This document shows positions 32 to 29,229 of a stretch of DNA of 47,164 bases, piece after piece. A model generated the notes under the pieces. It had not been told where the DNA came from. It saw nothing but the letters and a program-made list of their open reading frames with translations, and did not search any database. Origin of the DNA: a virus. The stretch is from the IMG/VR virus record IMGVR_UViG_3300046096_000127, positions 1 through 47,164 of that record. One strand, 5' to 3'. The position numbers were made by a program, and so were the translations under genes. How positions within the stretch are numbered: position 1 is the stretch's first letter; each line of letters opens with the position of its first letter.

Positions 32-86
32 CATGATAAAATAGAGTAGCCCTTCTACCTAGGATATCAATGGCAATCAATTTTCC
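32..86 (+). repeat. 55-bp exact direct repeat, copy 1
   Basis: Bases 32-86 are identical to 12670-12724. The repeat covers the -10 element, the whole leader, the ribosome binding site, the start codon and the first codons (MAINFP) of the two fibre genes at 70 and 12708. The flanking bases differ on both sides, so the identity is bounded. Confidence 0.95.
34..42 (+). promoter_or_regulatory. promoter-like extended -10, fibre cassette 1
   Basis: TG at 34-35 followed one base later by TAAAAT at 37-42 forms an extended -10. The transcript would start near 49 and contain a short GTAG-ccctt-CTAC hairpin and an AGGAT ribosome binding site before the ATG at 70. The same block recurs exactly at 12670, and related motifs head the other cassettes. 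No convincing -35 is visible. It may be read by host sigma factor or a phage-modified polymerase. Confidence 0.6.
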
Positions 87-2673
87 GGATTCACCCTCTG
101 TAAATGATGTATTTACAGTAGGTAGCGCTGCCTGGATTTGGACTGGCGTTGTCTGGAAGACTACTGGACTTGAGTATGCTAATGGCCCTACAGGTCCTAC
201 TGGATCTCAAGGTAGCCAAGGAGTAACTGGCCCTTCTGGAGCTGACTCATTTGTAACTGGACCAACTGGAGCTGCTGGCACAAATGGCACAAATGGTCAA
301 GATGGTGCAACTGGCCCAACTGGTACACAAGGCGCAACAGGTCCAACTGGTGATCAAGGCATTCAGGGAATCCAGGGAACTACTGGCCCAACCGGCATTC
401 AGGGAGCAACTGGCCCAACTGGTGCAACTGGTGAGTACGGACTAACCGGCCTTCAAGGTGCAACTGGACCAACCGGAGCTGACTCTAACGTAACTGGACC
501 TACTGGTTCAACTGGTGCAACTGGTGCAACAGGTGCAGACGGATATGTTGGTGCGGATGGTGCAACCGGACCTACTGGTGCAACTGGTGCTACTGGTGCT
601 ATAGGTGCAACTGGGCCAACTGGAGCACAAGGCATTCAAGGTGTAACAGGTGCAACAGGATCACAGGGAATCCAAGGTGCAACAGGTGCAACTGGTGCAA
701 CAGGTGCAGACGGATATGTTGGTGCGGATGGTGCAACCGGACCGACAGGCGCTACGGGACCGCAGGGTACAGACATCCACTTCATTGGGTCCGTGTCTAC
801 TGTAGGCGCACTACCGAGCACTGGTAACTCGAATAATGATGCCTATATTGTTGATTCTGATGGCAACCTTTATGTTTGGAATGGTTCAAGCTGGACTGAC
901 GCTGGTCAGATTGTTGGCCCCCAAGGTGCAACTGGTGCTCAGGGAGCCACTGGACCTGCAGGCCCTGGCGTTGCAACTGGCGGTTCTACTGGACAGTTCC
1001 TTGCCAAGGTTGATGGTACTGACTACAACACAACTTGGACTTCTACCGCACCTTCAGCTGGCTATACGTCAGTTATCAAGCATGAGGTGAAACTTGGTGA
1101 AGCAATTGCTAAGGGTCAGGCTGTTTACGTAAGTTCCTCTAACGGAACTAACATGATTGTTTCTAAGGCTTCGAATGCCGCTGAGACTACTTCATCTAAG
1201 ACTATGGGCTTGCTTGAGTCTGGTGGTTCAACTAATGCTTTTGTAAATGTAATTACTGAAGGTTTACTTACTGGTTTAGATACTGGAAGTGCTACTGCTG
1301 GTGATGCTGTTTGGTTGGGCACTGCAGGTGACCTTATCTTCTGGCATTACGGCGGTTCGACTACTAAGCCTTCTGCGCCAGCGCACTTGGTGTTTATTGG
1401 TATTGTTACCCGTGCACATGCAACTAATGGTGAAATTTTTGTCAAGGTTCAGAACGGTTTCGAGGTTGACGAGCTTCATGATGTAGCGATTACATCAAAA
1501 ACAGATGGCGACGTTCTACGCTACGATTCAGCAACTGGTTTATGGAAGAACTCTCAGGTAGTTGGACCTACTGGTGCAACAGGTGCAACGGGTGCAGCCT
1601 CTACTGTTGCAGGACCTACTGGGTCTCAGGGTATCCAGGGTGCAACTGGTGCTACTGGTGCAACAGGCCCTACCGGAGCTGCTTCAACCGTTACAGGACC
1701 TACAGGATCGGCAGGTGCAACCGGTGCAACTGGTGCAAAGGGTACCTACACGGTTTCAGATACCTCACCACCATCTCCAGTCCTCGGAGACATGTGGTTT
1801 AACTCAGCCGAGGGCATCATCTATGTCTACTACAGTGACTTCTGGGTAGAAGCAGATGCAAATATTGCAGGCCCAACTGGCCCAACTGGTGCGCAAGGTG
1901 TTCAGGGTGCAACAGGTCCAACTGGTGCAGATGGTGTTTATACCGTTTCTGCCACCGCACCATCGGACCCAGCCGAAGGCGACACTTGGTTTGACTCTAC
2001 CGACGGAACTATGTACCTATGGTACGGAACTGCTTGGGTCGAGACAACTTCAAACATCAGTGCGCCCGGGGCAACAGGGCCTACTGGAACTGGACGCTAC
2101 GCAGCAACATCTACTGCACCAACCAACCCAGCTATCGGCGAGACCTGGTTCGACACTAATACTAGCCAGATGTTTATTTGGTACGATGGCTATTGGGTCG
2201 AAACTTCATCTAACATCAACGGCCCAACTGGACCTCTAGGACCTACCGGTCCGATTGGTGTAACAGGGCCAAGCGTTACCGGACCAACTGGACCAACCGG
2301 TCCGACAGGCCCGACGGGAGCAGCGTCTCAGGTCACCGGCCCAACTGGAACTACAGGACCTACCGGTCCATACCTTTTCTCGACAATCACAGACGTAGCT
2401 GGGACTTACTCGACTATTTCCGCAAATGCCGGAACTGTTCTACGCTCTACCTCAGCTACGGCGTACACCATTACTGTTGATAATAATCTTGTAGCCGGAC
2501 AGCAGATTGACGTAATTCAGTATGGAGCTGGCCAAATCACATTCGTAGCAGGCACTGGGGTAACTCTAAACTCAGCTGCAAGCAAGTTTAAAACCAACGT
2601 TCAGTATTCACCGGCAACTATTATGTGCGTGGCTTCTGGGCTATATGTCTTGCTAGGTGATCTAGTCGTATGA
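70..2673 (+). CDS. collagen-like tail fibre protein (867 aa)
   Basis: This is a long fibre dominated by Gly-X-Thr collagen-like triplets (GPTGATG type), expected to form a trimeric triple-helical shaft. It starts with the MAINFPxSP module ending in a WxWxGxxW pattern (residues 1-33). Interspersed globular modules are one GSVxTVxxLPxTGN...DAYIVD...LYVWNG module, a larger globular domain near residues 320-490, and three copies of an APSxPxxGDxWFxSxxGxxYxWYxxxWVE module. The C-terminus is a beta module ending in LLGDL, also found at the end of the product of 24657-25928 and inside that of 5711-6988. Start: ATG with AGGAT upstream, inside the 55-bp repeat. The stop overlaps the next gene by ATGA. 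Function as a host-binding or decoration fibre is inferred from composition and context. Confidence 0.85.
514..572 (+). repeat. 59-bp in-frame direct repeat in collagen region, copy 1
   Basis: Bases 514-572 are identical to 685-743. The offset of 171 bases equals 57 codons, so recombination between copies would shorten or lengthen the shaft without breaking the frame. The block includes the non-triplet DGYVGADG element, which makes simple codon convergence less likely than recent duplication. Confidence 0.9.
685..743 (+). repeat. 59-bp in-frame direct repeat in collagen region, copy 2
   Basis: Second copy of the block at 514-572, identical over 59 bases. Just beyond it the two copies diverge (CCTACTGG against CCGACAGG). 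Confidence 0.9.
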
Positions 2674-3413
2674 GCCCTTTTATGGTTGGAACTACAGGCA
2701 GTCACAAAACTAAAGCTATGGTGTCCGGTGGAACGCTTTACTCAGATGCAACTTACTACTATCGAACTTTTTACGGAAGCAGCGATCTAGTTGTTTCAGT
2801 TCTTCCAGTAACCGTAGAGGTACTCATTCATGGGGGCGGCGGCGGCGGTGGAGGTAACATTGGAACTGGTGGCGCAGCAGGCGGAGTCTCTTATTTTTCT
2901 GGCAAAGTTCTAACTGTCGGGACGTATAGTCTTGTAGTCGGCGGCGGCGGGGTTGGGTCCAAAAACAGTAATGGATTCTCCGGTGCTTCAGGGTCAACTT
3001 CGTCTTTTCCGGGTACTGGTTCCGCTGGTGGCGGTGGCCTAGGCAGCGAGGGCGGTGGTGCTGGCGGTTCTGGTAACGGTGGCGGCGGTGGCGGCCGTGT
3101 TGCTGGAAGCAACAATGGTGGTGCAGGTGGTCCTGGAACTAACTCTTTCTCAACCTGGGTAACTACAACTGGTCTTCGCGGTGATGGTTACTTTGGTGGT
3201 GGCGGTGGTGGAGGTGCTCAGGGTGGCACTTCTCAGGTTCCTGGTGCCGGCGGTATTGGTGGAGGTGGCGGTGGAAGTGCTGGAACTGGCTCTAGTTTCG
3301 CGGGTGGCGGTCAGGGCGGAACTGGCTCTGGCGGCGGAGGTGGCTACGCCGGTGGTGGCAACGGTGGCTCTGGATTTGTTATGATTAGATATCTTAAGAC
3401 GGCGGTAGATTAA
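2670..3413 (+). CDS. Gly-rich fibre tip/adhesin protein (247 aa)
   Basis: The N-terminus leads into a [20 protein letters not shown] strand pair, followed by about 170 residues of GGGGG-rich sequence, and ends in [15 protein letters not shown]. This matches the Gly_rich_2-type domain of phage receptor-binding proteins: glycine runs pack as polyglycine-II-like layers between a start strand motif (YYYRTF) and an end motif (VxIRY). Six other genes here carry the same domain. The ATG overlaps the previous stop as ATGA, so translation is probably coupled to the collagen fibre, which suggests the product sits on or with that fibre (inference). Confidence 0.75.
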
Positions 3414-3745
3414 TGGCTCTGGATTTCCCAAACTCCCCGACTAACGGGCAAACTTTCACTTCTGGCAATCGAAGTTGGACTTTTAATGGCACCCGCTGGG
3501 AAGCTGTTTTCTATCAAGGTGCTCCTGGTCCAACTGGGCCATCAGGCCCTGCTGGAATCGATGGATCATATTCCGTATCTGCTACAGCACCCTCATCGCC
3601 GTCAGCGGGGCAGGCTTGGTTTAATACTGAAGATGGTAAACTATACATATACTTCAGTGGTGCATGGATGGAACCTAACGCGAACCTGATTGGTCCAACA
3701 GGCCCAGGCGTCACTAACTACATTCACCCATTCTTTACGGTATAG
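3413..3745 (+). CDS. short fibre protein with MAINFP-type N-terminal and WVE modules (110 aa)
   Basis: Residues 1-33 are a copy of the N-terminal module (FPNSPTNGQTFTSGNRSW then WNGTRW). After a short GPTGPSGPAG collagen stretch there is one copy of the YSVSATAPSSPSAGQAWF...WMEPNANL module. It is essentially a minimal version of the fibre at 70-2673 with almost no shaft. The start overlaps the previous stop as TAATG. It may be an adaptor or a degenerate fibre kept for its N-terminal module; its function is not known. Confidence 0.7.
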   Translation: MALDFPNSPTNGQTFTSGNRSWTFNGTRWEAVFYQGAPGPTGPSGPAGIDGSYSVSATAPSSPSAGQAWFNTEDGKLYIYFSGAWMEPNANLIGPTGPGVTNYIHPFFTV

Positions 3746-3753
3746 GAAAATAA

Positions 3754-4083
3754 ATGGCTACCACATATAAGATTCTTGGTCAGGTAAACCCTGCAGCCAC
3801 TACTGCCACTACTGCCTACACCGTGCCTGCCGGAACTCAAGCTATCGTTAACAGCATTGCTGTGTGTAACCAGGCTAGCGGGGCTGGCTCTTTTCGTATT
3901 GCCGTTCGCCCAGCTGGAGCTACGCTAGCCGCTCAGCACTACATCGCTTATGACACTCCTATCGGAGCTAACGACACTATTAACCCAGGAATTACGCTAT
4001 CTCTAGGTGCAACAGACGTTATTACTGTCTACATGTCAACCAACACCATGAGCGTCCTAGTTTCAGGTGTGGAGATTGTCTAA
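3754..4083 (+). CDS. small beta-rich fibre-associated protein (109 aa)
   Basis: A compact, cysteine-poor, valine- and threonine-rich protein with the pattern of a small beta sandwich (VPAGTQAIVNSIAVCN ... LGATDVITVYMSTN). The product of 13158-13517 is similar in length and pattern and lies in the same relative place, after a MAINFP-module gene and before a lectin-like gene, so the two are probably paralogs. A ribosome binding site (AGGA) lies 7 bases before the ATG. The specific role is unknown; a capping or attachment unit is a guess. Confidence 0.65.
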   Translation: MATTYKILGQVNPAATTATTAYTVPAGTQAIVNSIAVCNQASGAGSFRIAVRPAGATLAAQHYIAYDTPIGANDTINPGITLSLGATDVITVYMSTNTMSVLVSGVEIV

Positions 4084-5708
4084 TGCAATACGCGTCTTCT
4101 ATAACCAGATCTGGTATCCAGACATTTGCTCGCTATAAGAGCATTAAAGCTGGCTATTCCCCGCCTCCAACAGTAACCGGAGGGGTTCTCAGTGCTGATG
4201 CTACATATTACTATCGGACTTTTATTGCCTCCGGGACACTAACTATCTCTGGCGGCCTTATTACCATCGATGCTGTAGTAGTAGCTGGCGGCGGTGGCGG
4301 TGGCGGTGTTGCCCCAACTGGTGGCTACCATGCGGGCGGCGGTGGCGGCGGTGCTGGAGGTTACCTAACCGTAGCTAATTATGCTGCTTTTGGCGCATAC
4401 ACTATCGCAGTTGGAGCTGGAGGCTCTACCGCTAACTACGAGCCTACTATTGGAGGAGATACTTCTGCCTTCACATTTACAGCCATCGGTGGAGGTAAGG
4501 GTGCTACAGGAGGCTCTTCAATTGCAGCTACTAATGGCGGTTCTGGTGGAGGCGGGGGGCGCGATATTAATACCGCCGGGCAGGGTACCGCTAGTCAAGG
4601 TTTTGCAGGAGCTGCAGGCAGCGTAGCAGTGAATAGCGCTGCTGGTGGTGGTGGTGCTAGTACAGCGGGCAGTGCGCCTCAATCAACTTACGGAGGCAAC
4701 GGCGGAGCTGGCCTACAATGGCTAAACGGCTCATATTATGCTGGCGGCGGTGCTGGCGGTAATGGAAATACTAATAGCACTACCACAGTAGGTCAGGGCG
4801 GTCTAGGTGGTGGCGGTAACGGGTCACCATTTGCAACCTCTCGAATAGGTATTTCGGCGGGAGCAAACACTGGCGGTGGAGGTGGCGGTGGAGGTGCGTA
4901 TTCAACTCCTGAAGGAGTTTATGGTGGTTCAGGAGGATCTGGCGTTGTTATTGTTCGCTATTTAAAGTCTGCCGTAGTAAACAGCACTATATGGCGAACT
5001 GACTCGGCTTCTACCTCTCTTAAAATCGCAACGCCGCTTTCAGCTGATCTTAGCTTCAATGATTATTCTGCAACTATAGCCGGAAGTGGCGTCAATCGAG
5101 TAATGACATCAGTAAACTCTCCTGCATTTCAAACTATTTCTTCTAAGTATTATGGTAGCTCCCTGTCTATGGGCGGCTACTTAGAAAACAAATATATAAG
5201 CACTCCTACTAATGCAAATCTTCAAATCGGTACTAATGATTTCACAATCGAGGGCTGGTACTACTTCACCAGCACGTCGGTAAGCGGAGGCTATCAATGC
5301 ATGGCTTCTCATGCTGGCGACAGCGGAGATCAGCAGCCCGGCTGGGTTATGATTCTTGAGGCAAATACAACCCTGGCATTCTATGCTTGCACTGCTGGCA
5401 GCACCGGCTGGGGTATAGCCCTAACTACCTCTACAACTCCTACAGCTAACACCTGGCATCACGTAGCTGTAACTCGAGCAAGCGGTGTAGTTCGTATGTT
5501 CCTAAACGGTACTCAGGTTGGAACAGTGACATCAAACAACAACATTGGTATCCCTGCTTCTCAGACTTTCCGCATCGGTAGCTATCAGTATTTCCCAGGG
5601 CCAGTAGCCAAGGGACTTTCTGGTTACATCCAAGATTTCCGCTTCTACGTTGGAGCGGCTAAATACACAGGAGCATTTACTCCCCCAGCACAGATGTATG
5701 TAGGTTAA
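4083..5708 (+). CDS. Gly-rich adhesin with C-terminal LamG-like lectin domain (541 aa)
   Basis: Residues about 35-300 form the Gly-rich domain ([17 protein letters not shown] start, GSGVVIVRYLKSAV end). The remaining 240 residues look like a laminin-G/concanavalin-type jelly roll: NDFTIEGWYYF, WHHVAVTRASGVVRMFLNG, FRIGSYQYF and a final YIQDFRFYVGAAKYTGAFTP, the strand order typical of LamG_3 domains. Such domains bind glycans, so this is a candidate receptor-binding protein. TAATG overlap with the preceding small gene indicates coupled translation. Confidence 0.8.
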   Translation: MQYASSITRSGIQTFARYKSIKAGYSPPPTVTGGVLSADATYYYRTFIASGTLTISGGLITIDAVVVAGGGGGGGVAPTGGYHAGGGGGGAGGYLTVANYAAFGAYTIAVGAGGSTANYEPTIGGDTSAFTFTAIGGGKGATGGSSIAATNGGSGGGGGRDINTAGQGTASQGFAGAAGSVAVNSAAGGGGASTAGSAPQSTYGGNGGAGLQWLNGSYYAGGGAGGNGNTNSTTTVGQGGLGGGGNGSPFATSRIGISAGANTGGGGGGGGAYSTPEGVYGGSGGSGVVIVRYLKSAVVNSTIWRTDSASTSLKIATPLSADLSFNDYSATIAGSGVNRVMTSVNSPAFQTISSKYYGSSLSMGGYLENKYISTPTNANLQIGTNDFTIEGWYYFTSTSVSGGYQCMASHAGDSGDQQPGWVMILEANTTLAFYACTAGSTGWGIALTTSTTPTANTWHHVAVTRASGVVRMFLNGTQVGTVTSNNNIGIPASQTFRIGSYQYFPGPVAKGLSGYIQDFRFYVGAAKYTGAFTPPAQMYVG

Positions 5709-5710
5709 AT

Positions 5711-6988
5711 ATGGCTATCTCATTTCCAGGATCACCAACTCTAAATCAAACTTATGCATATGCAGGCCGTAGTTGGATTTGGAATGGCTCTAGTTGGCAG
5801 GCTCAAGGAACTGCTGCCATTACTACACGCACCGTTTCTGACAAGTCGGCAAACTATTCACTATCATCAGCAGACGAAAATCAGATTATCCGTTTTACCG
5901 GATCCTCAGCTCAAATTTTCACCATAAACAACGCTCTAAACGTTGGAGGTGTCACTTCGGTTTTCCAAGATGGAACAGGTACTGTCAATTTCAGTGCTGG
6001 TTCTGGAGTTACTCTTCTAAGCCCAGCTGGTTTTTCTACGCGTGCGCAATACTCTAAAGTTGACGTTAACTGTGTTGCCTCCGGTCAATATCGCCTATCG
6101 GGGGATCTTCCTGCTATTTCAGTAGTAACAGGAGGAACTTTATCGTCCGATTCAACATATTATTATCGGACATTTACAGCATCTAGCAGCTTGTCAGTAT
6201 CTTCTTTACCGATTGCAGTAGATATTCTTATGGTTGCCGGCGGTGGTACCGGTGGTGCAGTGGCTACTGGACAAACACAGCGTGGTGCTGGTGGTGGAGC
6301 AGGCGGTCTCATCTATATCTCTTCGTACACGATGCCTGCTGGCAGCTACACAATCGCGGTAGGCTCTGGAGGCGCTAGTGCTAGCGGAACGGCAGTTGCT
6401 AAGGGTGTAGATACAGTACTGTCCGGAAACGGTAGAACAATTACTGCTCTTGGCGGAGGAAGCGGTGGATATAACGACACCACTAATAACGCTACCTCTG
6501 GCGGTTCTGGTGCCGGACAGTGGTATCCAGGGTACCCCGGCTCAGCGGCAACACAGCCGTCCACCACAAGCGATGGGGTAGGAACATACGCCTCTACCGG
6601 ATTTGGTAATGCCGGTGGAACGTCAGGCAACTCTCAGCCCTATGCATCTGGTGGAGGTGGAGCTGGCGCGGCCGGAGGTAATTACAACGCTGTAGGTGGT
6701 CCAGTCGGCGGAGCCGGAAAGCAGTATTCTGCTTTTGCTACAGCAACTACTACCGGTGCTAATAGCGGGTATTATGCTGGCGGAGGTGGTGGAGCTGGGT
6801 ATCCACCCGAAGGTAGTACATATGCTAACTATGCCGGTGGTGCCGGTGGTGGCGGTACGGGAGTCAATACTGCTTATAATGCCATTTCAAACGCTGTAGT
6901 AAACACTGGCGGTGGCGGCGGGGCAGGCGGTTCCGGTGGTTCTGGTATTGTTATCATCCGTTATACAAAAGCAAGCGTAGGTGGCTAA
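5711..6988 (+). CDS. three-module fibre protein: MAISFP module, LSGDL module, Gly-rich domain (425 aa)
   Basis: It joins three modules that elsewhere occur in separate genes. Residues 1-35 are the N-terminal FPGSPTLNQTYAYAGRSWIWNG module. Residues about 40-135 are the beta module that ends in SGQYRLSGDLPA and closes the fibres at 70 and 24657. The rest is a Gly-rich domain from VTGGTLSSDSTYYYRTF to GSGIVIIRYTKASV. The ATG follows the previous stop by two bases with an AGG upstream. The architecture is direct evidence that these modules can be shuffled as units. Confidence 0.75.
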   Translation: MAISFPGSPTLNQTYAYAGRSWIWNGSSWQAQGTAAITTRTVSDKSANYSLSSADENQIIRFTGSSAQIFTINNALNVGGVTSVFQDGTGTVNFSAGSGVTLLSPAGFSTRAQYSKVDVNCVASGQYRLSGDLPAISVVTGGTLSSDSTYYYRTFTASSSLSVSSLPIAVDILMVAGGGTGGAVATGQTQRGAGGGAGGLIYISSYTMPAGSYTIAVGSGGASASGTAVAKGVDTVLSGNGRTITALGGGSGGYNDTTNNATSGGSGAGQWYPGYPGSAATQPSTTSDGVGTYASTGFGNAGGTSGNSQPYASGGGGAGAAGGNYNAVGGPVGGAGKQYSAFATATTTGANSGYYAGGGGGAGYPPEGSTYANYAGGAGGGGTGVNTAYNAISNAVVNTGGGGGAGGSGGSGIVIIRYTKASVGG

Positions 6989-6989
6989 T

Positions 6990-7544
6990 ATGACTATGAC
7001 ATTCCCTAGTTCTCCAACTCTAAACCAGACTTACACGTCAGATGGCCGTACCTGGTATTGGAACGGTTATGCCTGGAAGGCATCTGGCTATGTATCTGGA
7101 GTAGTAAGCGCGACATCGCCAATAACATATGACTCAAATACAAAAGTTGTTGGCCTAGATCGTACTGCAGAGAACACTGTAAATGACACTCGTTATGCAC
7201 TACTTGCAGACAATCAGCTATACCCTATAGATACGCCAGTTTTTGATGGGCTCTCTACTAGATTTATCCCTACATATCAGGGAACTCCTATTTCAGTAGC
7301 AAATCCTTATAAACTGCTTATCTTTATAAATGGTATTGCTCAGAAAATAACATTCCCGGAATACGTATGGCAGTCGGGCCTATCCAAAGACGGTTTTATG
7401 GTAGACTTAGAGGGATACATTTCTTTCACTGAGCCTATTCCTGCAGGAGCAACTTTCGACGGGCGTGTGCTTCCTGGAGCAGCAACTGTATCAACACCAA
7501 GTCAATATCCGTTCAATGCAGCGGATATCCTATTAGGAGCTTAA
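6990..7544 (+). CDS. fibre protein with MTMTFP N-terminal module (185 aa)
   Basis: Starting at the ATG at 6990 gives MTMTFPSSPTLNQTYTSDGRTWYWNG, which aligns residue for residue with MAINFP in the sister proteins; a GTG at 6981 is the alternative but overlaps the previous gene. The middle (SATSPITYDSNTKVVGLDRT) is a common fibre motif. The C-terminal 100 residues (KLLIFINGIAQ, EYVWQSG, GYISFTEPIPAGATFDGRVLPG) resemble a small domain often seen at the end of tail or neck fibre proteins, which returns a beta-rich head. Its exact role is unknown. Confidence 0.7.
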   Translation: MTMTFPSSPTLNQTYTSDGRTWYWNGYAWKASGYVSGVVSATSPITYDSNTKVVGLDRTAENTVNDTRYALLADNQLYPIDTPVFDGLSTRFIPTYQGTPISVANPYKLLIFINGIAQKITFPEYVWQSGLSKDGFMVDLEGYISFTEPIPAGATFDGRVLPGAATVSTPSQYPFNAADILLGA

Positions 7545-10500
7545 ATGGCTAGAAAAATCATCCTAGACACCGCGTACACCTTTACGCCGTCTACTAGAAC
7601 TATCGTTATTCCGAAGTTCATTGCCCGTGAGCGCCTACTCCTAATTACCAACGTCACTACCAACCAGGTGATTTATAACTTCTCTGATATCGCCTTGAAG
7701 GCAACTTCATATACAAGCTCGACTGCAAACATGGTTGAGTCGACAACTATTGTCTTGAACTACAACACCACTGCAATGTCATCTACTGACAAGCTTCAGA
7801 TTACGGTTGATGAGTTTGCAGAGTCATTTACGCCTGCTGACACTCAGCTAGACCCAACTAACAAGCTTCGTGTATCGCAGCCTCAGGCGCTTATTGACAC
7901 TGACTTCGAGTACGGTATGCAGGTATCTAAGTGGGAAAACTTGGCTATGACCAACAACCGCCCATTTGCTTACGCTTACCCTGTATTCATCCCAAATATT
8001 TCAGGTATCGCATTCCCACAGAATGGCCGCACCGTAACTGTTACTACTTCAGCTAACCACGGTCTTTCAGCAGGGCAGGCAATTACTGTTCAGGATACTT
8101 ACCTAAACATTGCCAACGGTAACTTCATCATTGAGACCGTTCCTAGCTCTACTACCTTCACATTTACTGCTCGTGCAATCAACACTAGCTCGACCATTAC
8201 TGCAATTTTTGATGCTAACAAGACCGCTATCTACCAGGGAAGCATCTACAGCGGTGCTCAGATTGGTGGAGCACCGAATATCATGACTTACAGCGGTACT
8301 GCAATTACTGTAGCCACCACTGTAGCTCACGGACTTTCAATCGGTAATGAGATTGCTGTTACTGGCACTACTGCATCTACTAACGCACCTAATGGCTCAT
8401 TCATTGTTGCCTCGGTACTTAGTGCAGTATCCTTCGTATACTATGCAGCTGCAGCACCAACTGGTACTCTTGGCTATGGCTCAGCAGCTATTTATGCTCG
8501 TCCTCAGGCACAGTTCCTACACCGACCATTTGACGGTGGAGTTATTTTCACCTCTAACGGAACCTCAAACAACGAGCAAGCTATCCGCCAGACTCGTCGT
8601 TACTTCCGTTACCAGTCAGGTAAGGGCATCCAGATCTCATCTGGTACCATCCTAAAGCCAGCTCTACAGCTAGATGCTTTGACTTCATCTGGAACTACTG
8701 TTACTGTTCAGACTAAAGAGCAGCACAACATCCAGCCTGGAACCTCAGTAACCATCTCGGGTGCTAATGAGTCTGCCTACAACGGTACGTTTGTAGTGAC
8801 CAACGTTACTGGATTCAACACTTTCCAGTACACGGCTCTTTCAACCCCTTCGGCAACCCCTGCTTCAGGTCAATTCTATGCATCAGTTACCTCATGGTAC
8901 GGCGCAACTAACCGTCTAGGAACTTTTGACAACCAGAATGGCTTGTTCTTCGAGTATGACGGTCAGGCTCTTTATGCTGTTCGCCGCAGCTCCACATATC
9001 AGGTAGCAGGTCGTGTTTCTGTAGTTAATGGTTCTACTACTGTTTCACAGACTGACGCATCCTATGCAACTACCTTCAATAAGCAGCTAGCTGTTGGTGA
9101 CTTTATTGTCATTCGCGGACAGTCATACCGTGTGCAGGACATTGCTTCTGACACCTCACTGACAATCACCCCTGCATATCGCGGTGCCACTACTACCCAC
9201 GTCACTATGTCAAAGACTGTAGAGACTCGTATCCCTCAGTCGCAGTGGAACATCGACAAGATGGACGGAACCGGGCCTTCAGGCTACAGCATCGACCTAT
9301 CAAAGATGCAGATGTTCTATATTGACTACACCTGGTATGGTGCGGGATATGTTCGTTGGGGTCTTCGTGGTCCAAACGGTAACGTAGTGTATGTACACCG
9401 TATGCCTAACAACAACATCAACAATGAAGCATACATGCGCTCTGGAAACCTTCCAGCCCGCTACGAGTCAAATACTTTCTCAAAGATTACTCAAATCACT
9501 TCATCAATTGGCGCAACTGATACTTCAATCAATGTTCGTTCTACTAGCGGATTCTCTCCTACAGGAACTATCGTAATTCGCAGCGCTACAGCTTTTGAGT
9601 ATGTAAACTACACCGGTGTTACTACAACATCATTCACCGGACTAACCCGTGCTCAGGCTGGAGCAACAACTAACGTAACTATTGCTGCTGGGTCAAACCT
9701 TGGAACTGTCTCGGCTAGCACAGGTATTCAGGTTGGTCAGCGCGTTGTGCACACTAACTTCCCTGACAATACCTTTGTTTCAGCTATCTCGGGAACTACC
9801 ATCACATTTAGCAATGCTGCTGTTGTAGCTAACCCTACTTCAGTTATTTTTGCACCTATGGCCGGAGCAGCTCAGGCGTTTACCTTCTCAGCAACTGCAC
9901 CAATCGCAGTTGAGCAGGCATACCCAACCTATGCCCCAAGCATTAGCCACTGGGGTACCTCGGTTATTATGGATGGTCGTTACGACGATGACAAGTCTCT
10001 CTTGTTCACCTTTGGTCAGACTACCTTCACTAACATTACTGCTGGTGCTTCAAAGGCCCTGTTCTCTATCCGTGTTTCACCATCGGTAGATAACGGTACT
10101 CCTGCAGCATTCGGTGCTCGTGAACTTGTTAACCGCATGCAGCTCATCCTCCGTGCGCTAGACGTTACTACTAAGACCACAGGTGCTACATTCCTTGTAA
10201 CAGCTGTTCTTAATGGAACTCCATCTTCAGCTACGGCATGGACTAACGCAGTTAAAAATGCTACTGGTGTAGCTAACTCTTCACTTGCTCAGCTTGCTGA
10301 CTACGCTGGTGGAACTACTACCGTTTCAAATGGTGAAGTTACTGGCGGATTCTTCGTATCAGGAACTACTTCGGTAGACTTGGATAAGGTTCGTGACCTT
10401 GGTAACTCGATTCTGGGTGGTGGTGGAGCCAACTCCAACACAAATATTTACCCAGATGGTCCAGACGTTCTAACCATTTCAGTAACTAACCTCGGTGCAT

Positions 10501-10550
10501 CAGCTATTGACGTACTAGGCCGTCTATCATGGTCTGAGGCTCAGGCTTAA
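7545..10550 (+). CDS. large virion structural protein, probable baseplate or tail-fibre base (1001 aa)
   Basis: The largest single-chain structural protein here without collagen or glycine repeats. The N-terminal 150 residues (KIILDTAYTFTPSTRTIVIP, VIYNFSDIALKATSY, TDFEYGMQVSKWENL) resemble, from memory, virion proteins of marine T4-like phages. Three internal copies of an HGLSxGxxITVxxTxxxxxNGxFxVxxVxSxxxFxY unit (near residues 175, 265 and 390) look like small beta domains. The second half contains further beta repeats and an alpha-poor C-terminus. A conserved core protein among variable adhesins would fit a hub on which fibres dock (inference). Ribosome binding site AGGAG; the ATG follows the stop directly. 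Confidence 0.65.
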   Translation: MARKIILDTAYTFTPSTRTIVIPKFIARERLLLITNVTTNQVIYNFSDIALKATSYTSSTANMVESTTIVLNYNTTAMSSTDKLQITVDEFAESFTPADTQLDPTNKLRVSQPQALIDTDFEYGMQVSKWENLAMTNNRPFAYAYPVFIPNISGIAFPQNGRTVTVTTSANHGLSAGQAITVQDTYLNIANGNFIIETVPSSTTFTFTARAINTSSTITAIFDANKTAIYQGSIYSGAQIGGAPNIMTYSGTAITVATTVAHGLSIGNEIAVTGTTASTNAPNGSFIVASVLSAVSFVYYAAAAPTGTLGYGSAAIYARPQAQFLHRPFDGGVIFTSNGTSNNEQAIRQTRRYFRYQSGKGIQISSGTILKPALQLDALTSSGTTVTVQTKEQHNIQPGTSVTISGANESAYNGTFVVTNVTGFNTFQYTALSTPSATPASGQFYASVTSWYGATNRLGTFDNQNGLFFEYDGQALYAVRRSSTYQVAGRVSVVNGSTTVSQTDASYATTFNKQLAVGDFIVIRGQSYRVQDIASDTSLTITPAYRGATTTHVTMSKTVETRIPQSQWNIDKMDGTGPSGYSIDLSKMQMFYIDYTWYGAGYVRWGLRGPNGNVVYVHRMPNNNINNEAYMRSGNLPARYESNTFSKITQITSSIGATDTSINVRSTSGFSPTGTIVIRSATAFEYVNYTGVTTTSFTGLTRAQAGATTNVTIAAGSNLGTVSASTGIQVGQRVVHTNFPDNTFVSAISGTTITFSNAAVVANPTSVIFAPMAGAAQAFTFSATAPIAVEQAYPTYAPSISHWGTSVIMDGRYDDDKSLLFTFGQTTFTNITAGASKALFSIRVSPSVDNGTPAAFGARELVNRMQLILRALDVTTKTTGATFLVTAVLNGTPSSATAWTNAVKNATGVANSSLAQLADYAGGTTTVSNGEVTGGFFVSGTTSVDLDKVRDLGNSILGGGGANSNTNIYPDGPDVLTISVTNLGASAIDVLGRLSWSEAQA

Positions 10551-10562
10551 AAGGAGTCCCTA

Positions 10563-12646: not shown

Positions 12647-12669
12647 AATCAACCCAACTACTTGATTTA

Positions 12670-13154: not shown

Positions 13155-13157
13155 GCA

Positions 13158-14545: not shown

Positions 14546-14547
14546 AA

Positions 14548-15348: not shown

Positions 15349-15376
15349 CTAGACCGTCACAGCAATCTAAATAAGG

Positions 15377-16197: not shown

Positions 16198-16206
16198 GAG
16201 TAACAC

Positions 16207-17616: not shown

Positions 17617-17618
17617 CT

Positions 17619-19435: not shown

Positions 19436-19476
19436 ATCCTGAGCAACTAAGGACAGTCAGTAAGTAGTGAATGCGG

Positions 19477-19482
19477 TAAAAT
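19477..19482 (+). promoter_or_regulatory. promoter-like -10, fibre cassette 4
   Basis: TAAAAT at 19477-19482 is preceded by GCGG and followed by AGAG-gtaata-CTCT, a potential leader hairpin, then ACCTTAAGGA and the ATG at 19512. The leader resembles that of cassettes 1 and 2 (TAAAATAGAG ... CTACCTAGGA), which supports shared ancestry. Confidence 0.6.
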
Positions 19483-19511
19483 AGAGGTAATACTCTACCT
19501 TAAGGACCGTT

Positions 19512-19873
19512 ATGTCGTGCTTTTCTAGCAATATATATGACATTATTGCAGACCAAGGTGCAACTTTTCAGCGACACATCGTTCTTAAGACCACAGCCAA
19601 GAAGCCAATTACCTTCGGGCTGCACACTGGACTGATGCAGATTAGAACTAGAGCTACATCTCCAGTTATCTTGCTAGAGCTTTCTACCGAGAATGGTCTA
19701 ATCAAGCTAGACGGGACCAAGGGGCTAATTGAGCTCTACATTTCAGCTGCGGTTATGACTGAAATGCCAGCTGGTGACTATGTCTACGATCTAGACCTAA
19801 CAGAAACAGAAACTTCTGAAGTTACTACTGTTCTTCAAGGCGAATTTACGGTACGTGCGGAGGTAACACGCTA

Positions 19874-19874
<1 letters not shown>
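19512..19874 (+). CDS. baseplate/fibre attachment-type protein (120 aa)
   Basis: The pattern is that of a common small phage protein found before fibre genes: [28 protein letters not shown]-like strand ([20 protein letters not shown]), [34 protein letters not shown] and a closing [15 protein letters not shown] recognise the pattern but not a firm family name. AAGGA precedes the ATG, and its TAA overlaps the next start as TAATG. It probably forms a small beta sandwich that joins the long collagen fibre to the baseplate (inference). Confidence 0.65.
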
Positions 19875-23770
<3,896 letters not shown>

Positions 23771-23781
23771 GGAGTAGATTA

Positions 23782-24597
23782 ATGCCTCTACTCTCAACAG
23801 CGGGTGCAGCATCTGCAAGAGGCTGGCTTGATATTATTCCTAAGCCAGTAGTCACTGGCGGAACATTGTACTCAGATGCTAGCTATAACTACATAGTATT
23901 TACTTCAAGCGGATCTCTATCAATAACTGGTGGAAGTATTATTGCCGACATGATTGTTATAGCTGGTGGTGGTGGCGGTGGTAATGACCAGAATGGTGGC
24001 GGTGGAGCAGGTGGACTTCTATCTGACCCAGCGGTATCTTTGGCTACCGGAACCTATACTGTAACTATTGGTGGTGGTGGTATCCCGTCTAATGGAAACG
24101 TTAGCCAAGGAACGAATGGAACTAACTCCAGACTGGGCTCACGCGCTGAGGCTATTGGCGGCGGTGTTGGCGATAATTACTACTTCTCTGCAGGTAGTGG
24201 TGGTTCTGGCGGTGGAGGAAGTATTCACAGCCCAGGTTCTGGGGTAGCAGGTCAAGGTTACGCAGGTTCACCAGGAAACTATGGTGGTGGAGGAGGAGCT
24301 GGTGGAACCTCGGGCGGGCAAGCTGGTGGTATAGGCTCAGCGGTATTCTCTAGCTGGGGCCTTGCTACAACTACTGGACAAAATGTTTCGGGTACTGTCT
24401 ATTATGCTGGTGGCGGAGCGGGCGGTCGCTATGGCGCTTTAGGTGGGTATGGCGGTGGTGGTAACGGTAATAACTACTCTGGTGGTATTCCGGCTACATC
24501 TGGTACTACTAATACTGGCGGTGGCGGTGGAGGTGCACTATTTGCTGCTGGAGGTAATGGCGGCTCAGGGATTGTAATAGTCCGCTACCCTAAATAG
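23782..24597 (+). CDS. Gly-rich adhesin (271 aa)
   Basis: A stand-alone Gly-rich domain: [40 protein letters not shown], and a closing GSGIVIVRYPK at the extreme C-terminus. There is no lectin domain. It follows the giant fibre with a strong AAGGAG site and could be its distal tip, in the way gp38-type Gly-rich tips cap long fibres in some T4-like phages (family knowledge; the pairing here is inference). It ends cassette 4. Confidence 0.75.
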   Translation: MPLLSTAGAASARGWLDIIPKPVVTGGTLYSDASYNYIVFTSSGSLSITGGSIIADMIVIAGGGGGGNDQNGGGGAGGLLSDPAVSLATGTYTVTIGGGGIPSNGNVSQGTNGTNSRLGSRAEAIGGGVGDNYYFSAGSGGSGGGGSIHSPGSGVAGQGYAGSPGNYGGGGGAGGTSGGQAGGIGSAVFSSWGLATTTGQNVSGTVYYAGGGAGGRYGALGGYGGGGNGNNYSGGIPATSGTTNTGGGGGGALFAAGGNGGSGIVIVRYPK

Positions 24598-24621
24598 CCT
24601 CTACACTGCAGTTTTTATCAT

Positions 24622-24629
24622 GGTAAAAT
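24622..24629 (+). promoter_or_regulatory. promoter-like extended -10, fibre cassette 5
   Basis: TGG at 24621-24623 followed by TAAAAT at 24624-24629. The leader has an ATAC-ttt-GTAT hairpin followed by AGGACATAA and the ATG at 24657. It lies within the 59 bases that separate the stop of the previous gene from the next start. Confidence 0.6.
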
Positions 24630-24656
24630 AGACATAATACTTTGTATAGGACATAA

Positions 24657-25928
24657 ATGGCCATCAATTTCCCAAACTCTCCATCAGTAAATGATGAATT
24701 TACGTATGATAATCGTACGTGGGTTTGGAATGGCGCTACCTGGGACGTAAAACTAACTACTTTTGTACTAGGACCAACCGGACCACAGGGCGGTACAGGT
24801 GCAACTGGGCCAACCGGACCTAGTGTAACTGGACCAACAGGTGCAGCTTCAAATGTCACGGGGCCAACAGGTCCAACTGGAGCAGTAGGGCCGCAGGGGA
24901 CCTTTGGTGGAGCTACGTTCAAGTACAACTACATCACTAGCACTGTAGATATCAATCCAGGATCGGGAAACCTAGGATTTGACAACACTCTAACTACAGC
25001 TACCATGCTCTATATAAGCTGGTTTGATTTCAATGCATCAGATGCTCAGGCTTACTTGGAAACAATTGATGACTCTAGCTCCGCGATCAAGGGCCACTTT
25101 AAAATTTCTGAAATTGGTAATCCAGATAATTATGTATATTATGCAATTACTGGGTATCACTACGCACATGACTCGTATTATGAAGTGCCAATATCTTACC
25201 TAGACGGAAACGTGACATCTTGGGCAAACAGCCAAGATGTGAACATTACCTTCGTACGCACAGGTGACAAAGGTGACGATGGACCAACTGGCCCTACGGG
25301 AGCGAGTGGCACCAACGGTACTAATGGTATAAATGGGTCAGATGGCCCGACGGGTCCAACAGGCACCACGGGCCCAACTGGACCTGGAGGCCTTAGCGGT
25401 TTAGTTGCTACTTCACCAGTTACGTTCAATGTTAATACATCAACTATAGGGTTTAACCAGAGTACGTCACTATCTCTAGTTGGTACGCAGACTATTACAG
25501 CTGCCTCGTCTACAGCTAAGGCATTGATTGTTAAAGGTGCGTCCTCTAACACAGCAAACATACAGGAATGGCAGAGCCCAGCCGGGACATCCGTTCTAGC
25601 TAGCGTAAGCGCTAACGGAAACATAGTTTCTCACCTAGAGTTTAATGCTCAGACAGCTAGCTATACTCTAGTTGCCTCGGATGATGGCAAGGTCATCGAA
25701 GTAAATAGCTCTCAGGACGTAGTGATTAGTGTACCTAGCGGCGCAGTATTTATGACTGGTGCTCAAATTACTATTGTAAGAGTGAATACTGGAGGAGTAT
25801 CAGTGGCGGGTTCTGGCGTCTCAGTGTATGGAACTCCAGGACTTAAGCTACGTGATCGCTGGTCATCCGCATCACTAATTAAACGCTCTAACGGAACTTG
25901 GCTACTACTCGGTGATTTGAGCGCATAA
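24657..25928 (+). CDS. collagen-like fibre with globular inserts (423 aa)
   Basis: N-terminal MAINFPNSPSVNDEFTYDNR module, closest in wording to the gene at 70 (SPSVNDVF). A collagen run (GPTGPQGG ... GPQGTFGG) leads to a unique globular insert of about 110 residues (FKYNYITSTVDINPGSGNLG ... VNITFVRTGDKGDDG), a second collagen run, then NTANIQEWQSPAGTSVLASV, as in the giant fibre, and a C-terminal beta module ending in GTWLLLGDLSA. The stop overlaps the FN3 gene as TAATG. Confidence 0.75.
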   Translation: MAINFPNSPSVNDEFTYDNRTWVWNGATWDVKLTTFVLGPTGPQGGTGATGPTGPSVTGPTGAASNVTGPTGPTGAVGPQGTFGGATFKYNYITSTVDINPGSGNLGFDNTLTTATMLYISWFDFNASDAQAYLETIDDSSSAIKGHFKISEIGNPDNYVYYAITGYHYAHDSYYEVPISYLDGNVTSWANSQDVNITFVRTGDKGDDGPTGPTGASGTNGTNGINGSDGPTGPTGTTGPTGPGGLSGLVATSPVTFNVNTSTIGFNQSTSLSLVGTQTITAASSTAKALIVKGASSNTANIQEWQSPAGTSVLASVSANGNIVSHLEFNAQTASYTLVASDDGKVIEVNSSQDVVISVPSGAVFMTGAQITIVRVNTGGVSVAGSGVSVYGTPGLKLRDRWSSASLIKRSNGTWLLLGDLSA

Positions 25929-28735
25929 TGAGAAACCATCACCACGGTGTAGAGGCTTCTCAAAATAGTAAATCATTTCTTGCTCCTAAAGCACCAACCA
26001 ACGTTACCGCACTAAACGTGAGCGGCAGACCATTCGGCAACGGAATGTTGATGCTGTCATATACCCCTAATCCAAACGGATCACCAGCAACTTCTTACGA
26101 GATAGTCTCCTCATCGGGGTCGTATCAAAACACATACGCTCCGGGAGAGACCATACTGGTTGGCAGCCTTACTGGCGGCGTAACCTATCAGTTCAAGATA
26201 CGAGCAATTAATGCTGCTGGCATTTCTCCATGGTCAGCTTTATCACCTGCAGTAAAAGTAAAGACTATCCCGGCTATCCCGGTACTAGGGACTCCAACTA
26301 ACGAGCCTGGCAGATTTTACGGTGATGGCGCTATAAGCCTCCCCTTTACTCCCCCTGCGGATGGGGGAAGTCCACCTGTAACTATCTTTGCAATTCCCTT
26401 TCCTAGCGGTCCAGTAGCGTATTTCACTACATCTCCAGGATTGGTAACAGGGTTGCAGGGCGGAAGTACTTATACAGTCAAGGCCGCGTCCTCTAATAAT
26501 GAGGGCACTACCGGGCTATCTGATCCGACTTCATCAGTAACGGTATATACCGCTCCAGAAAAAGCCTCAATCGGAAGTTTTACGGCGCTCAATAATACAG
26601 TTACAGTTACATTTGCTGCAGCAGGCGGTACCGGTGGGTCTCCAGTAACCTCTACAACCGTAATTCTGACAGATTTTAATACAGAAATGATTGTTGGAGA
26701 ATCTACAGCCGAATCTCCAGTAACATTTAGCGGAAACATAGAGTACGGAACTAAATATAAGGTAGAAGTTATTCGTACCAATGCGTACGGAAATTCAGAA
26801 CCAGCGTCGGCTACAGTAACTACTCAGGGAAATCCACCTAACCTACACGAGATATCCGCTACACCACTAAGCGGTAGCAGCATTTCGGTACATATGACTG
26901 CACCCGTATACCCATACGAAGTAACATATGACCTATATTATGGCCAAACTGGACTACCACTCAGCTATGCGGCTACATATACTGCAGCAGCAGATGTAGC
27001 TTTTGACGAGACTTTTGTTTTCAATGGATTGATCGCTAGTGTTGAGTACTCGTTTACTCTAGCCAACGGGCAAGTAGATGCTACTACCACTGCAACTACC
27101 TTACCCTTGTCTGCACCAGGTCAGATAAACCTAGTTGGAGATACAACGGTTGGCTCGACTATAACTTCGTTTGCTCAAAACTGGACTAATAATCCAACTG
27201 CCTACGAGACAAAAATTACATCTACATATGGCTATGATCCTACTGAGTCCAGTCCAATAGTAGCCACTGGAGAGTCTCAGGCATCATACAAAATTACCAA
27301 ACTTGACACTGATCCACCGCCAAACAGGTATCGATCATTCGTACGTGCTACCAATGCTAATGGTGTCTCTGGTTGGTACCCATCTAGCGCAATTCTAATT
27401 GCACAACCACTGGTAGGGGCTATCAGTATCAGCGAAGTTGCAGGGACTGCAACTACTACTAGTTTAAAAGTAAGACTCCAAGTAGCTATCTCTAGCTACG
27501 AACGATATTTCAGCGTATCTGCAAACAATGTTTTTAAGACAGACTATACAGTCTTGGAGGGGGCAACTTTAGATACGCAATACACTGTAACTGGACTTAC
27601 TCCAGGCGTCACATATACAGTCACACTGAGCGACCCATCGGGCAGTGCTTCAGTTAGCTTGACTACGTTAGGACCGCCTACTGGAGGTCAGTCTGGTATT
27701 TCTGGAACTGGTATGGCAGGAACTACACTAACGGCTACCACCAGCAACTGGGGAAACGCGCCTCTTTCTTACGAGACAAAGATTGTAGCTAGTACTGTCA
27801 ATCCACCAGTAGAAGGCAACATTACCAAAGCAAGTAGCCTGTATAACTCCGTGCAGTACACAATTACTACAGAAGATGCTGCAGACCCTCCATACTACTT
27901 CCGCGCATTTGGAAGATCTACAAATGCAAACGGAACTTCAGCATGGGTAGGATCTGACACTATTATTAAGTCATACCCTATACCAGTACCATCTGGTGGT
28001 ACCGTATCACTTACTGGCGGTAGTACTGTCGGATCTACCCTATACGCTAGTACAAGCGGCTGGGGCAATGTAAATAGCTATGAAATCAAGATTGTAGCAT
28101 CTACTAGTACCCCAACGGAATCTAGTGTTGCTAGAGCTACAGGAACTTCATCCACTAGCACCACGATCATAAATACTGATGCACTACCTCCGCTAGTACA
28201 GTTTCGAGCATATGCTAGAGCTACTAATAATGGTGGAACCTCTGCATGGGTATCATCTGGAGTTATCACCACTACCGCTGGCACTGCACCAACTGGAGGT
28301 TCTGTATCTCTAAGTGGTACTGGAGTTGCTGGTACATCTCTAACTGCAACAGCTAGTGGATGGTCAGGCGCTGATAGCGTAGAAACTATAATAAACGCTA
28401 GTACTTCTACACCAGTCCTTTCGAGCAACCTGACGAAGGCATCGGGGAATACCTCTACATCATATACAGTCACAACATATGATGCATCTTCTCCAGCATT
28501 CTATTTCTCGGCATTCTCTAGAGCAACTAACTTCTACGGAACTACCGGCTGGGTTCAATCAGGAACTATCCTATCGTCACCAGCAGCAACTACAGCAACT
28601 ACGGCAACTACGGCAACTACGGCAACTACGGCAACTACGGCAACTAGTTCATGTAATAATATCACCCTAAGCAACTGTGCCGCATGTGGTGGTGTTGTGA
28701 TGGGGACTGGATCAAATAGGATTTGTGCAATATAG
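25928..28735 (+). CDS. FN3- and Ig-like repeat fibre protein with Cys-rich tail (935 aa)
   Basis: Residues about 18-115 are a clear fibronectin type III domain (PTNVTALNVSG, YEIVSSSG, GVTYQFKIRAINAAGISPWS). Two or three more FN3-like domains follow to about 385. The second half has four 90-100-residue repeats with the pattern GxVSLxGxxxVGSTLxAxxSxW then YExKIVASTxxP and RAxARATNxxGTSAW. Near the C-terminus a Thr-Ala run (ATTATTATT) is encoded by 9-bp tandem repeats, followed by a cysteine-bearing tail CNNITLSNCAACGGVVMGTG. Such strings of beta domains act as spacers or weak glycan binders on virions. A His-rich start (MRNHHHGVEAS) is unusual. Confidence 0.75.
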   Translation: MRNHHHGVEASQNSKSFLAPKAPTNVTALNVSGRPFGNGMLMLSYTPNPNGSPATSYEIVSSSGSYQNTYAPGETILVGSLTGGVTYQFKIRAINAAGISPWSALSPAVKVKTIPAIPVLGTPTNEPGRFYGDGAISLPFTPPADGGSPPVTIFAIPFPSGPVAYFTTSPGLVTGLQGGSTYTVKAASSNNEGTTGLSDPTSSVTVYTAPEKASIGSFTALNNTVTVTFAAAGGTGGSPVTSTTVILTDFNTEMIVGESTAESPVTFSGNIEYGTKYKVEVIRTNAYGNSEPASATVTTQGNPPNLHEISATPLSGSSISVHMTAPVYPYEVTYDLYYGQTGLPLSYAATYTAAADVAFDETFVFNGLIASVEYSFTLANGQVDATTTATTLPLSAPGQINLVGDTTVGSTITSFAQNWTNNPTAYETKITSTYGYDPTESSPIVATGESQASYKITKLDTDPPPNRYRSFVRATNANGVSGWYPSSAILIAQPLVGAISISEVAGTATTTSLKVRLQVAISSYERYFSVSANNVFKTDYTVLEGATLDTQYTVTGLTPGVTYTVTLSDPSGSASVSLTTLGPPTGGQSGISGTGMAGTTLTATTSNWGNAPLSYETKIVASTVNPPVEGNITKASSLYNSVQYTITTEDAADPPYYFRAFGRSTNANGTSAWVGSDTIIKSYPIPVPSGGTVSLTGGSTVGSTLYASTSGWGNVNSYEIKIVASTSTPTESSVARATGTSSTSTTIINTDALPPLVQFRAYARATNNGGTSAWVSSGVITTTAGTAPTGGSVSLSGTGVAGTSLTATASGWSGADSVETIINASTSTPVLSSNLTKASGNTSTSYTVTTYDASSPAFYFSAFSRATNFYGTTGWVQSGTILSSPAATTATTATTATTATTATTATSSCNNITLSNCAACGGVVMGTGSNRICAI
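28586..28648 (+). repeat. 9-bp tandem repeat (GCAACTACG, about 7 units)
   Basis: Five exact GCAACTACG units (28595-28639) flanked by GCAACTACA and GCAACTAGT. They encode the Ala-Thr-Thr run before the Cys-rich tail. The unit is a multiple of three, so copy-number change alters linker length but not frame. Confidence 0.95.
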
Positions 28736-29217: not shown

Positions 29218-29229
29218 TGGGCCCATATC

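Follow-up and report, generated by a model that had tools for sequence, protein, structure and literature searches.

We analysed a 47,164-base virus record (IMG/VR record IMGVR_UViG_3300046096_000127, called the window below), in which positions 70-28735 form an island of 24 genes, all on the + strand. Our analysis suggests, with a probability of roughly two in three, that this island is a host-recognition tail-fibre locus composed of about nine dock-plug cassettes with exchangeable tips. Each cassette would encode a trimeric fibre, in which an N-terminal module serves as the anchor, collagen and small beta modules as spacers, and a C-terminal dock domain as the end. The next gene would then encode the receptor-binding tip as a protein of its own, with a short N-terminal plug that would physically fit the dock, and the completed fibres would be displayed simultaneously on the virion. 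Because the dock and plug are conserved and the body of the tip is free to vary, tips could be exchanged without rebuilding the fibre, such that Gly-rich, LamG, fibrinogen-like, fn3 and D160 tips (modules introduced below) would recombine between cassettes and phages. This reading is built on features that can be read from the sequences: the modules and their gene order, a plug behind one class of dock, swapped tips, and docks shared with a phage whose replication genes are unrelated.

Cassette organisation of the island

Most of the island genes fall into about nine cassettes with the order N-terminal anchor (MAINFP module), shaft, C-terminal dock (FAGY or LGDL domain, or a separate small protein such as B110 or B119) and separate tip gene. 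Genes are named here by their first position.

70-3413, + strand: cassette 1, anchor-collagen shaft-LGDL dock (70-2673) and Gly-rich tip (2670-3413)
3413-5708, + strand: cassette 2, anchor-collagen-WVE (3413-3745), B110 small dock (3754-4083) and Gly-rich plus LamG tip (4083-5708)
5711-6988, + strand: cassette 3, a natural fusion of anchor, LGDL dock and Gly-rich tip
6981-10550, + strand: cassette 4, anchor gene (6981-7544) and conserved 1001-residue virion structural protein (7545-10550, PHROG 5838)
10563-12646, + strand: cassette 5, FAGY dock (domain 10716-11075) and Gly-rich plus LamG tip with plug (11090-11164)
12708-15348, + strand: cassette 6, anchor-collagen-WVE (12708-13154), B119 dock (13158-13517), fibrinogen-like tip (13493-14545, an internal Met being the probable start) and LamG tip (14533-15348)
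15389-19435, + strand: cassette 7, anchor-collagen (15389-15625), Mtd_N-FAGY dock (15625-16197; FAGY 15820-16182), Gly-rich-D160 tip (plug 16207-16278), D160 (17619-18101) and D160-Gly-rich (18098-19435)
19512-24597, + strand: cassette 8, 120-residue protein (19512-19874), 1298-residue collagen fibre with FAGY dock (19874-23770; domain 23384-23755) and Gly-rich tip (plug 23782-23847)
24657-28735, + strand: cassette 9, anchor-collagen-LGDL dock (24657-25928) and fn3 tip (25928-28735)

This ordered grammar is sharper than the limited module kit that an earlier note on this DNA had described, and it is fitted least well by cassette 4 (genes 6981 and 7545) and by the LamG gene 14533.

The contents of that kit were recovered throughout, and recurrent modules account for 5833 of the 9457 island residues. 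The MAINFP module is present in seven genes (70, 3413, 5711, 6981, 12708, 15389 and 24657), one of which, counted as the seventh, is the 78-residue open reading frame at 15389-15625. Seven genes carry the Gly-rich domain PF21722, at 43.8-76.9 bits against a Pfam cut-off of 24.3. Gly-X-Y collagen is found in six (70, 3413, 12708, 15389, 19874 and 24657) after the seven Gly-rich genes were taken out by hand from the 13 marked by a crude counter; it exceeds the Pfam cut-off in 70, 19874 and 24657, gene 15389 not having been submitted to Pfam. The WVE module has six copies spread over four genes, and LYVWDG, FAGY, LGDL and the 160-residue domain D160 have three copies each, a weak extra LYVWDG match at residues 3-34 of gene 70 having been dropped since it overlaps MAINFP. 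LamG-like domains occur in three genes, assigned by Pfam for 4083 and 11090 and by PHROGs and our own profile alone for 14533. The fibrinogen C-like domain (26.2 bits, cut-off 22) and the Mtd_N domain of gene 15625 (59.9 bits, cut-off 26.3) are single copies, and gene 5711-6988 indeed fuses MAINFP, LGDL and Gly-rich modules. Beyond the earlier list, we found a QEWQ module in two genes, a 150-residue module in gene 70, fn3 and fn3-like repeats in 25928-28735, the conserved 1001-residue protein, and the 120-residue protein 19512, which also lies upstream of collagen fibres in several relatives.

A conserved plug behind the FAGY dock

Starting from the window copies, module profiles were extended iteratively over a discovery set consisting of the best 80 of 386 matches to the 1001-residue protein, the islands of 24 contigs found with the Prim-Pol/D5 primase-helicase (prim-pol) gene, and the phage DSL-LC01. 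In this set all 19 distinct FAGY copies are C-terminal, and each is followed by a gene on the same strand, with gaps of -37 to 41 nucleotides; the window contributes three of three. Sixteen of the 19 followers start with a plug of the form M(S/A)P-hydrophobic, or 18 when an internal Met is allowed, compared with 46 (54) of 1887 other genes. The plug precedes tips of several kinds. The 19 followers comprise eight Gly-rich, two LamG, one Gly-rich plus LamG, one Gly-rich plus D160, one N-module and six unassigned proteins.

Because the plug pattern was first noticed in the discovery data, a held-out test was made. Fresh contigs were found with the single protein 15625, as the FAGY alignment held no conserved stretch for a degenerate search, and ten records of named phages were picked from 6 and 541 matches, the 541 being mostly Mtd_N. 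This gave 22 held-out followers, 13 from the fresh contigs and nine from annotated named phages, with Syn30 and S-E7 counted once owing to their likeness in this region. A plug profile trained on 18 discovery plugs, leaving out the plugless nineteenth (L060), gave 16 of the 22 a score of at least 6.5 bits, which no more than 3 of 2144 other genes attained. The other six ranked 12 (L221) and 66-175 (L204, L207, L209, L214 and S-BM3). The held-out plugs come from actinophage-like contigs, cyanophages and Roseobacter phages; cultured phages that have the cassette include the Synechococcus phages Syn30 and S-MbCM6 and the Roseobacter phages CRP-3 and CRP-738. In all 15 FAGY copies of the fresh set, at most 5 residues separate the domain from the C-terminus, and one copy lies at a contig end; this set adds a follower consisting of D160 alone. 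The pair of FAGY dock and tip stands directly after tape-measure and distal tail (Dit) proteins in L206 and L207, and after tape-measure matches with one gene between in L204 and L211. In MW202481 the FAGY follower is annotated as tail fibre adhesin gp38.

An ordinary mosaic fibre locus, in which genes are gained and lost independently, docks and plugs are not paired and the conserved N-termini are recombination boundaries, must be weighed against these data. Such clusters are known, as mosaic host-recognition clusters average 34.2 and 44.6 kb in cyanomyophages and pelagimyophages (PMC7029224). Moreover, homologous recombination needs conserved 5' ends, and the window has a 70-nucleotide leader repeat. 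However, recombination boundaries do not readily account for a plug that lies right behind FAGY, is rare elsewhere, sits on different folds and recurs in held-out data. In our own reading, the fused gene 5711, where dock and tip form one chain, also lacks a recognisable plug. We therefore regard a purely mosaic locus as unlikely.

One FAGY-tip pair has a further neighbour of note. In the cyanophage S-MbCM6 (L238), a 2OG-Fe(II) oxygenase gene (3947-4573) lies directly behind the pair, and it is possible that this enzyme hydroxylates fibre proteins.

Exchange of tips between phages

One swap is found in a trio of closely related contigs (L003, L004 and L074), whose 1001-residue proteins are 87-89% identical and whose gene order is mostly kept. 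Between L003 and L074 the FAGY dock is 71% identical over its last 130 residues, but the tip behind it is LamG in L003 and Gly-rich in L074; the next shaft gene is again 84% identical. The earlier note held that a fixed gene order with no module exchange among relatives would speak against it; in this trio the order is mostly fixed, yet the tip has been exchanged.

A second comparison is provided by contig G046, which is taken to be contractile because it carries a tail sheath match (PHROG 23, E 6e-50), and whose helicase and polymerase are only 24-28% identical to those of the window. Its 13-kb island nonetheless shares with the window, in the same order, B110 (72% identical), B119 (78%) and the Mtd_N-FAGY protein (82%). 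Behind B119, the tip is Gly-rich in G046 and fibrinogen-like in the window, and the first 20 residues of the two are 50% identical. The G046 LamG domain is 71% identical to that of gene 11090 and is placed on a 14533-like N-terminus, such that LamG occurs on two different plugs. The prim-pol gene was not found in ten of the fresh FAGY contigs, including G046, all of which are fragments searched with no positive control. The combinatorial exchange proposed in the earlier note is supported by conserved docks with differing tips, by LamG on two plugs and by the tip turnover described below; the image of a kit undersells the order in which the parts are used.

For comparison with the prim-pol relatives, 14 of the 24 contigs fetched were used, several covering only part of the island. 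Prim-pol itself is present in 13 of the 14, at 58-79% identity. In none of the 14 did 12 of the 24 island genes, and nine of the ten tip genes, have a homologue covering 60% of their length; the figure of 12 is unmasked and is the one used, low-complexity masking having raised it to 16. Partial contigs overstate such absence; incomplete coverage alone does not account for the recovery of many anchors and docks but not of tips. On these sequence comparisons, the tips appear to turn over fastest among the island parts. A further idea, that the Gly-rich tips have hypervariable loops, was first suggested by conserved ends and an unalignable middle in L003, L004 and L074; it was dropped when the unmasked comparison showed the Gly-rich tip behind the 310-residue FAGY gene to be 78-100% identical per block beyond residue 60.

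It is interesting to speculate, at less than even odds, that these parts form a transferable plug-and-socket standard among phages of aquatic bacteria. A few C-terminal docks, each with its own plug, would then let tips of unrelated folds be traded between cassettes and across the divide of contractile and non-contractile phages, and the window phage would carry many different tips on a single virion at once.

The body of the fn3 tip 25928-28735 aligns partly with that of an fn3 tip in contig G007, and the last 27 residues of the two are 52% identical.

Positional rules of the other modules

Within the discovery set the remaining modules also keep their places. LGDL is C-terminal in 42 of 44 copies, and gene 5711, where a Gly-rich tip is fused behind it, accounts for one of the two exceptions. 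LYVWDG is internal in 60 of 62 copies, and MAINFP has further sequence behind it in 75 of 82. The window copies of the LGDL dock are as follows.

2398-2670, + strand: LGDL dock copy 1
5846-6115, + strand: LGDL dock copy 2, inside the 5711 fusion, with a predicted T4 gp9 / TSP4 XD1 fold
25653-25925, + strand: LGDL dock copy 3

In 25 of 42 rows the gene behind LGDL encodes an fn3 protein, often with a basic M-S-K-R-like start; Gly-rich, D160, N-module and unassigned proteins make up the rest. Among 50 rows, B110 is followed by the 1001-residue family in 14, Gly-rich proteins in 13, D160 in two, LamG in two and others in 19. LGDL and B110 are weaker dock cases than FAGY.

B110 lies upstream of 11 of 12 short forms of the 1001-residue protein and of none of 40 long forms. 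The idea that the long form has B110 fused as its N-terminus was dropped despite this split, as the profiles do not align. Two contigs, G020 (L169-L170) and G018 (L167-L168), have two copies of the 1001-residue protein per island, and a 2853-residue protein of DSL-LC01 contains parts of it. Between two fibre groups of contig G005 (20681-25848 in oriented contig coordinates) are seven genes of unknown function encoding 227-261 residues, 74-95% identical in G006; judged by size and position, similar gene runs occupy the same place in G001, G002, G015, G018 and G020.

Predicted folds of docks and tips

An AlphaFold2 model of 5711-6988, one of the seven Gly-rich genes, had a mean predicted local distance difference test score (pLDDT) of 72.6. 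Its Gly-rich part matched Pam3 gp24 (7ypx), a TNF-like and glycine-rich fold, with Z 13.9 (177 residues aligned, root-mean-square deviation (rmsd) 2.9), the Bxb1 tail tip with Z 12.4 (186 aligned, rmsd 3.8) and the ALK/LTK glycine-rich domain with Z about 7-8.5. The LGDL part matched 9ny6, 9f4a, 7rfo, 5iv5 and 1qex with Z 8.8-12.1 over 88-95 residues (rmsd 2.1-2.5). These matches include the Pa223 capsid spike (Z 12.1, 95 aligned, rmsd 2.2), a Klebsiella phage baseplate protein (Z 10.6), CBA120 TSP4 residues 80-179 (Z 10.2, 92 aligned, rmsd 2.4), T4 baseplate chain AC (Z 9.8, 92 aligned, rmsd 2.3) and T4 gp9 (Z 8.8, 88 aligned, rmsd 2.5). We take chain AC to be gp10 from its length. The use of that entry in PMC8825819 also points to gp10, and the domain description in the same paper makes TSP4 80-179 the XD1 domain, which is also present in gp9. 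The model thus predicts a T4 gp9/CBA120 XD1 connector fold for LGDL and a Pam3 gp24 fold for the Gly-rich tip.

FAGY was modelled with pLDDT 86-95 over residues 71-190. When it was compared with predicted viral structures, the top matches were uncharacterised or collagen proteins from uncultured phages, and proteins of cyanophages. S16 and PP01 gp38 are absent from the PDB sequence matches and from the fold matches listed, by which a similarity is not excluded.

Several observations weigh against a locus of dock-plug cassettes. The held-out followers are partly related to one another or to the window (L203 to a window gene; L210, L213 and L215; L209 and L214; L204 and L208). Three cyanophages have two tandem FAGY genes with a plug-bearing gene behind the second only, and the FAGY follower of L060 is an N-module gene that has no plug. 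The FAGY plug is absent from most followers of LGDL (3 of 41 match) and of B110 (3 of 47), and no homology between FAGY and LGDL is claimed, as hhalign aligns only 17 columns. Structurally, LGDL has a pLDDT of about 54-71 in the 5711 model, and the FAGY matches to the gp9/gp10-like group are weak (Z 3.2-5.8). In addition, PMC8825819 describes XD1 as a spacer of incompletely understood role, unlike the docking domains XD2 and XD3.

Finally, the stand-alone B110 and B119 could be chaperones. In the general form of this alternative, the docks, mainly these two, would fold the product of the next gene, as Pam3 gp25 does for gp24; tail-fibre chaperones are known (PMC9608196), and small separate proteins do adjoin the fibre genes here. 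However, FAGY and LGDL form the C-termini of fibres, which reach 1298 residues in the window, and LGDL is fused to its tip in 5711. The Pam3 chaperone, judged by its number, comes after its fibre, whereas the docks precede the tip. A chaperone role for the docks is therefore improbable in our view.

Expression of the cassettes

The exact 9-mer TAAAATAGA has four + strand copies in the window against about 0.17 expected, and at three of the four its surroundings fall in the leader repeat.

37-45, 12675-12683, 19477-19485 and 24624-24632, + strand: promoter-like element TAAAATAGA, 33-35 nucleotides before genes 70, 12708, 19512 and 24657, with 33 at gene 70
32-101, + strand: 70-nucleotide leader with MAINFP 5' end, repeated at 12670-12739 (90%) and 24619-24688 (67%)

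We infer that the 9-mer is an extended -10-like promoter, and the cassettes would probably be transcribed together from about four such elements. Only the exact 9-mer is enriched, as three allowed mismatches gave 8 copies against 6.5 expected; it is not general in relatives, and matches to a sigma-70 consensus in 12400-30400 were not in excess (17 against 24 expected).

The earlier note also raised the island as a reservoir for tropism switching. Fibres expressed singly from such a reservoir, by phase variation or a diversity-generating retroelement, would suit the many tips in one genome and the Mtd_N domain of 15625. The window gives this suggestion no support. Inverted repeats of at least 40 nucleotides are absent from 1-29300, and Pfam scans of the submitted open reading frames of this incomplete contig found no invertase, integrase or reverse transcriptase, template repeats not having been specifically sought. 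A promoter-like element before four separate genes instead suits parallel expression. Expression of one fibre at a time is thus very unlikely.

Relation to known systems

The island as such is of a known kind, since large hypervariable host-recognition islands have already been described. Like the host recognition cluster of pelagimyophages and cyanomyophages, it is a large hypervariable tail-fibre island, and the structural operon of those phages includes collagen, Mtd, ConA-like and YadA domains (PMC7029224). Those phages are T4-like marine myophages, whereas the window lineage looks siphovirus-like, and the accessible text describes no dock-plug grammar for them. Cultured freshwater Nanopelagicales phages E7 and F5 also have a hypervariable island, with a partial tail fibre and two collagen-like proteins, of about 5 kb in 39-kb genomes compared with 28.7 kb in the window (PMC10202952).

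The island also resembles the gp37-gp38 system of the T2/S16 type, in which a glycine-rich separate tip protein stands at the fibre end. There gp38 interacts with gp37 through its N-terminus, and to overcome an incompatibility with T2, a PP01 gp38 was built in which the T2 sequence replaces the N-terminal 113 residues (PMC12892980). The window differs in having several dock types, several tip folds behind one dock type and about nine cassettes in one genome. Its Gly-rich domains belong to the same Pfam family (PF21722, Gly_rich_2) as Pam3 gp24, which was detected in virions by mass spectrometry; the Pam3 fibre consists of a single protein, which docks to the baseplate through a helical N-terminal domain of its own (PMC9608196), whereas five of the seven window Gly-rich proteins (2670, 4083, 11090, 16207 and 23782) start with a short leader after a dock gene. 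The other two are fused to a dock (5711) or lie behind D160 (18098). The branched complexes of CBA120 TSP1-4 and other Ackermannviridae likewise place several receptor-binding proteins on connector domains, which LGDL is predicted to resemble through its gp9/XD1 fold (PMC11721090, PMC8825819). Their XD domains are N-terminal, with XD2 and XD3 binding partners, whereas the connector-like fold of the window is C-terminal in a tandem of dock then tip, and no beta-helical tailspike was recognised in the island.

The plug-socket grammar looks to be the new part, as the pairing was not found described in the literature searched; few subscription papers were covered, which makes this weak evidence. 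If correct, dock and plug would give a rule, readable from sequence, for which tip remains compatible with which fibre after a swap. The rule would predict the receptor-binding tip gene in uncultured phages and tell tip from shaft. Gly-rich, LamG, fibrinogen-like, fn3 and D160 proteins, many of them in families of unknown function (PHROG 2295 and 5906), would be tied to one place on the virion. Swap events could be counted to obtain the rate at which freshwater phages change receptor use, and the layout may explain how such viruses switch the surface molecules that they recognise.

Genomic setting and likely host

The window has no tRNA genes. Its minus-strand genes include DNA polymerase A, an SNF2 helicase, a PD-(D/E)XK nuclease, an AAA protein annotated as RecA-like in relatives, and WhiB. 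Because of WhiB, the host is probably an actinobacterium, and the contig is probably that of an actinophage with a freshwater actinobacterial host. No near-identical match to positions 1-25000 was found in INPHARED. To its right, the island faces a convergent replication gene.

30349-32991, - strand: Prim-Pol/D5 primase-helicase, past the right end of the island and after 29230-30159

Among named phages, the closest relative that shares this layout is Actinomycetia phage DSL-LC01. Its genome was assembled from a metagenome, and its TerL is most similar to those of Microbacterium phages (PMC10611076). In the cultured Microbacterium phage Pumpernickel, the interval from tape measure to convergent primase-helicase holds four annotated minor tail proteins and two small hypothetical genes, and three of the four carry fragments of the 1001-residue protein or fn3 modules; by position, this layout supports reading the island as a tail locus. 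Of relative G010 ten proteins were tested; the families recognised are portal, major head protein, head-tail adaptor, tape measure and minor tail, and none of the ten is a sheath. The window lineage looks siphovirus-like, and the phage is probably large, tailed and non-contractile.

Adjoining the DNA polymerase is a GIY-YIG/NUMOD3 homing-endonuclease-like gene (44545-45204, - strand) with no homologue at the length cut in the 14 relatives, only a few of which cover the region; it is possibly a recent insertion. Just past the island, a 76-residue cysteine-rich protein (28987-29217, + strand), a probable zinc ribbon, is present in two of the 14 relatives. It is followed by a GlcNAc transferase (PF11397, 126.5 bits; 29230-30159, + strand), and two GT2-TPR glycosyltransferases lie past prim-pol (35090-36139 and 36129-37217, both + strand). 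The Thr-rich Gly-Pro-Thr collagen shafts of the island could be substrates of these three transferases.

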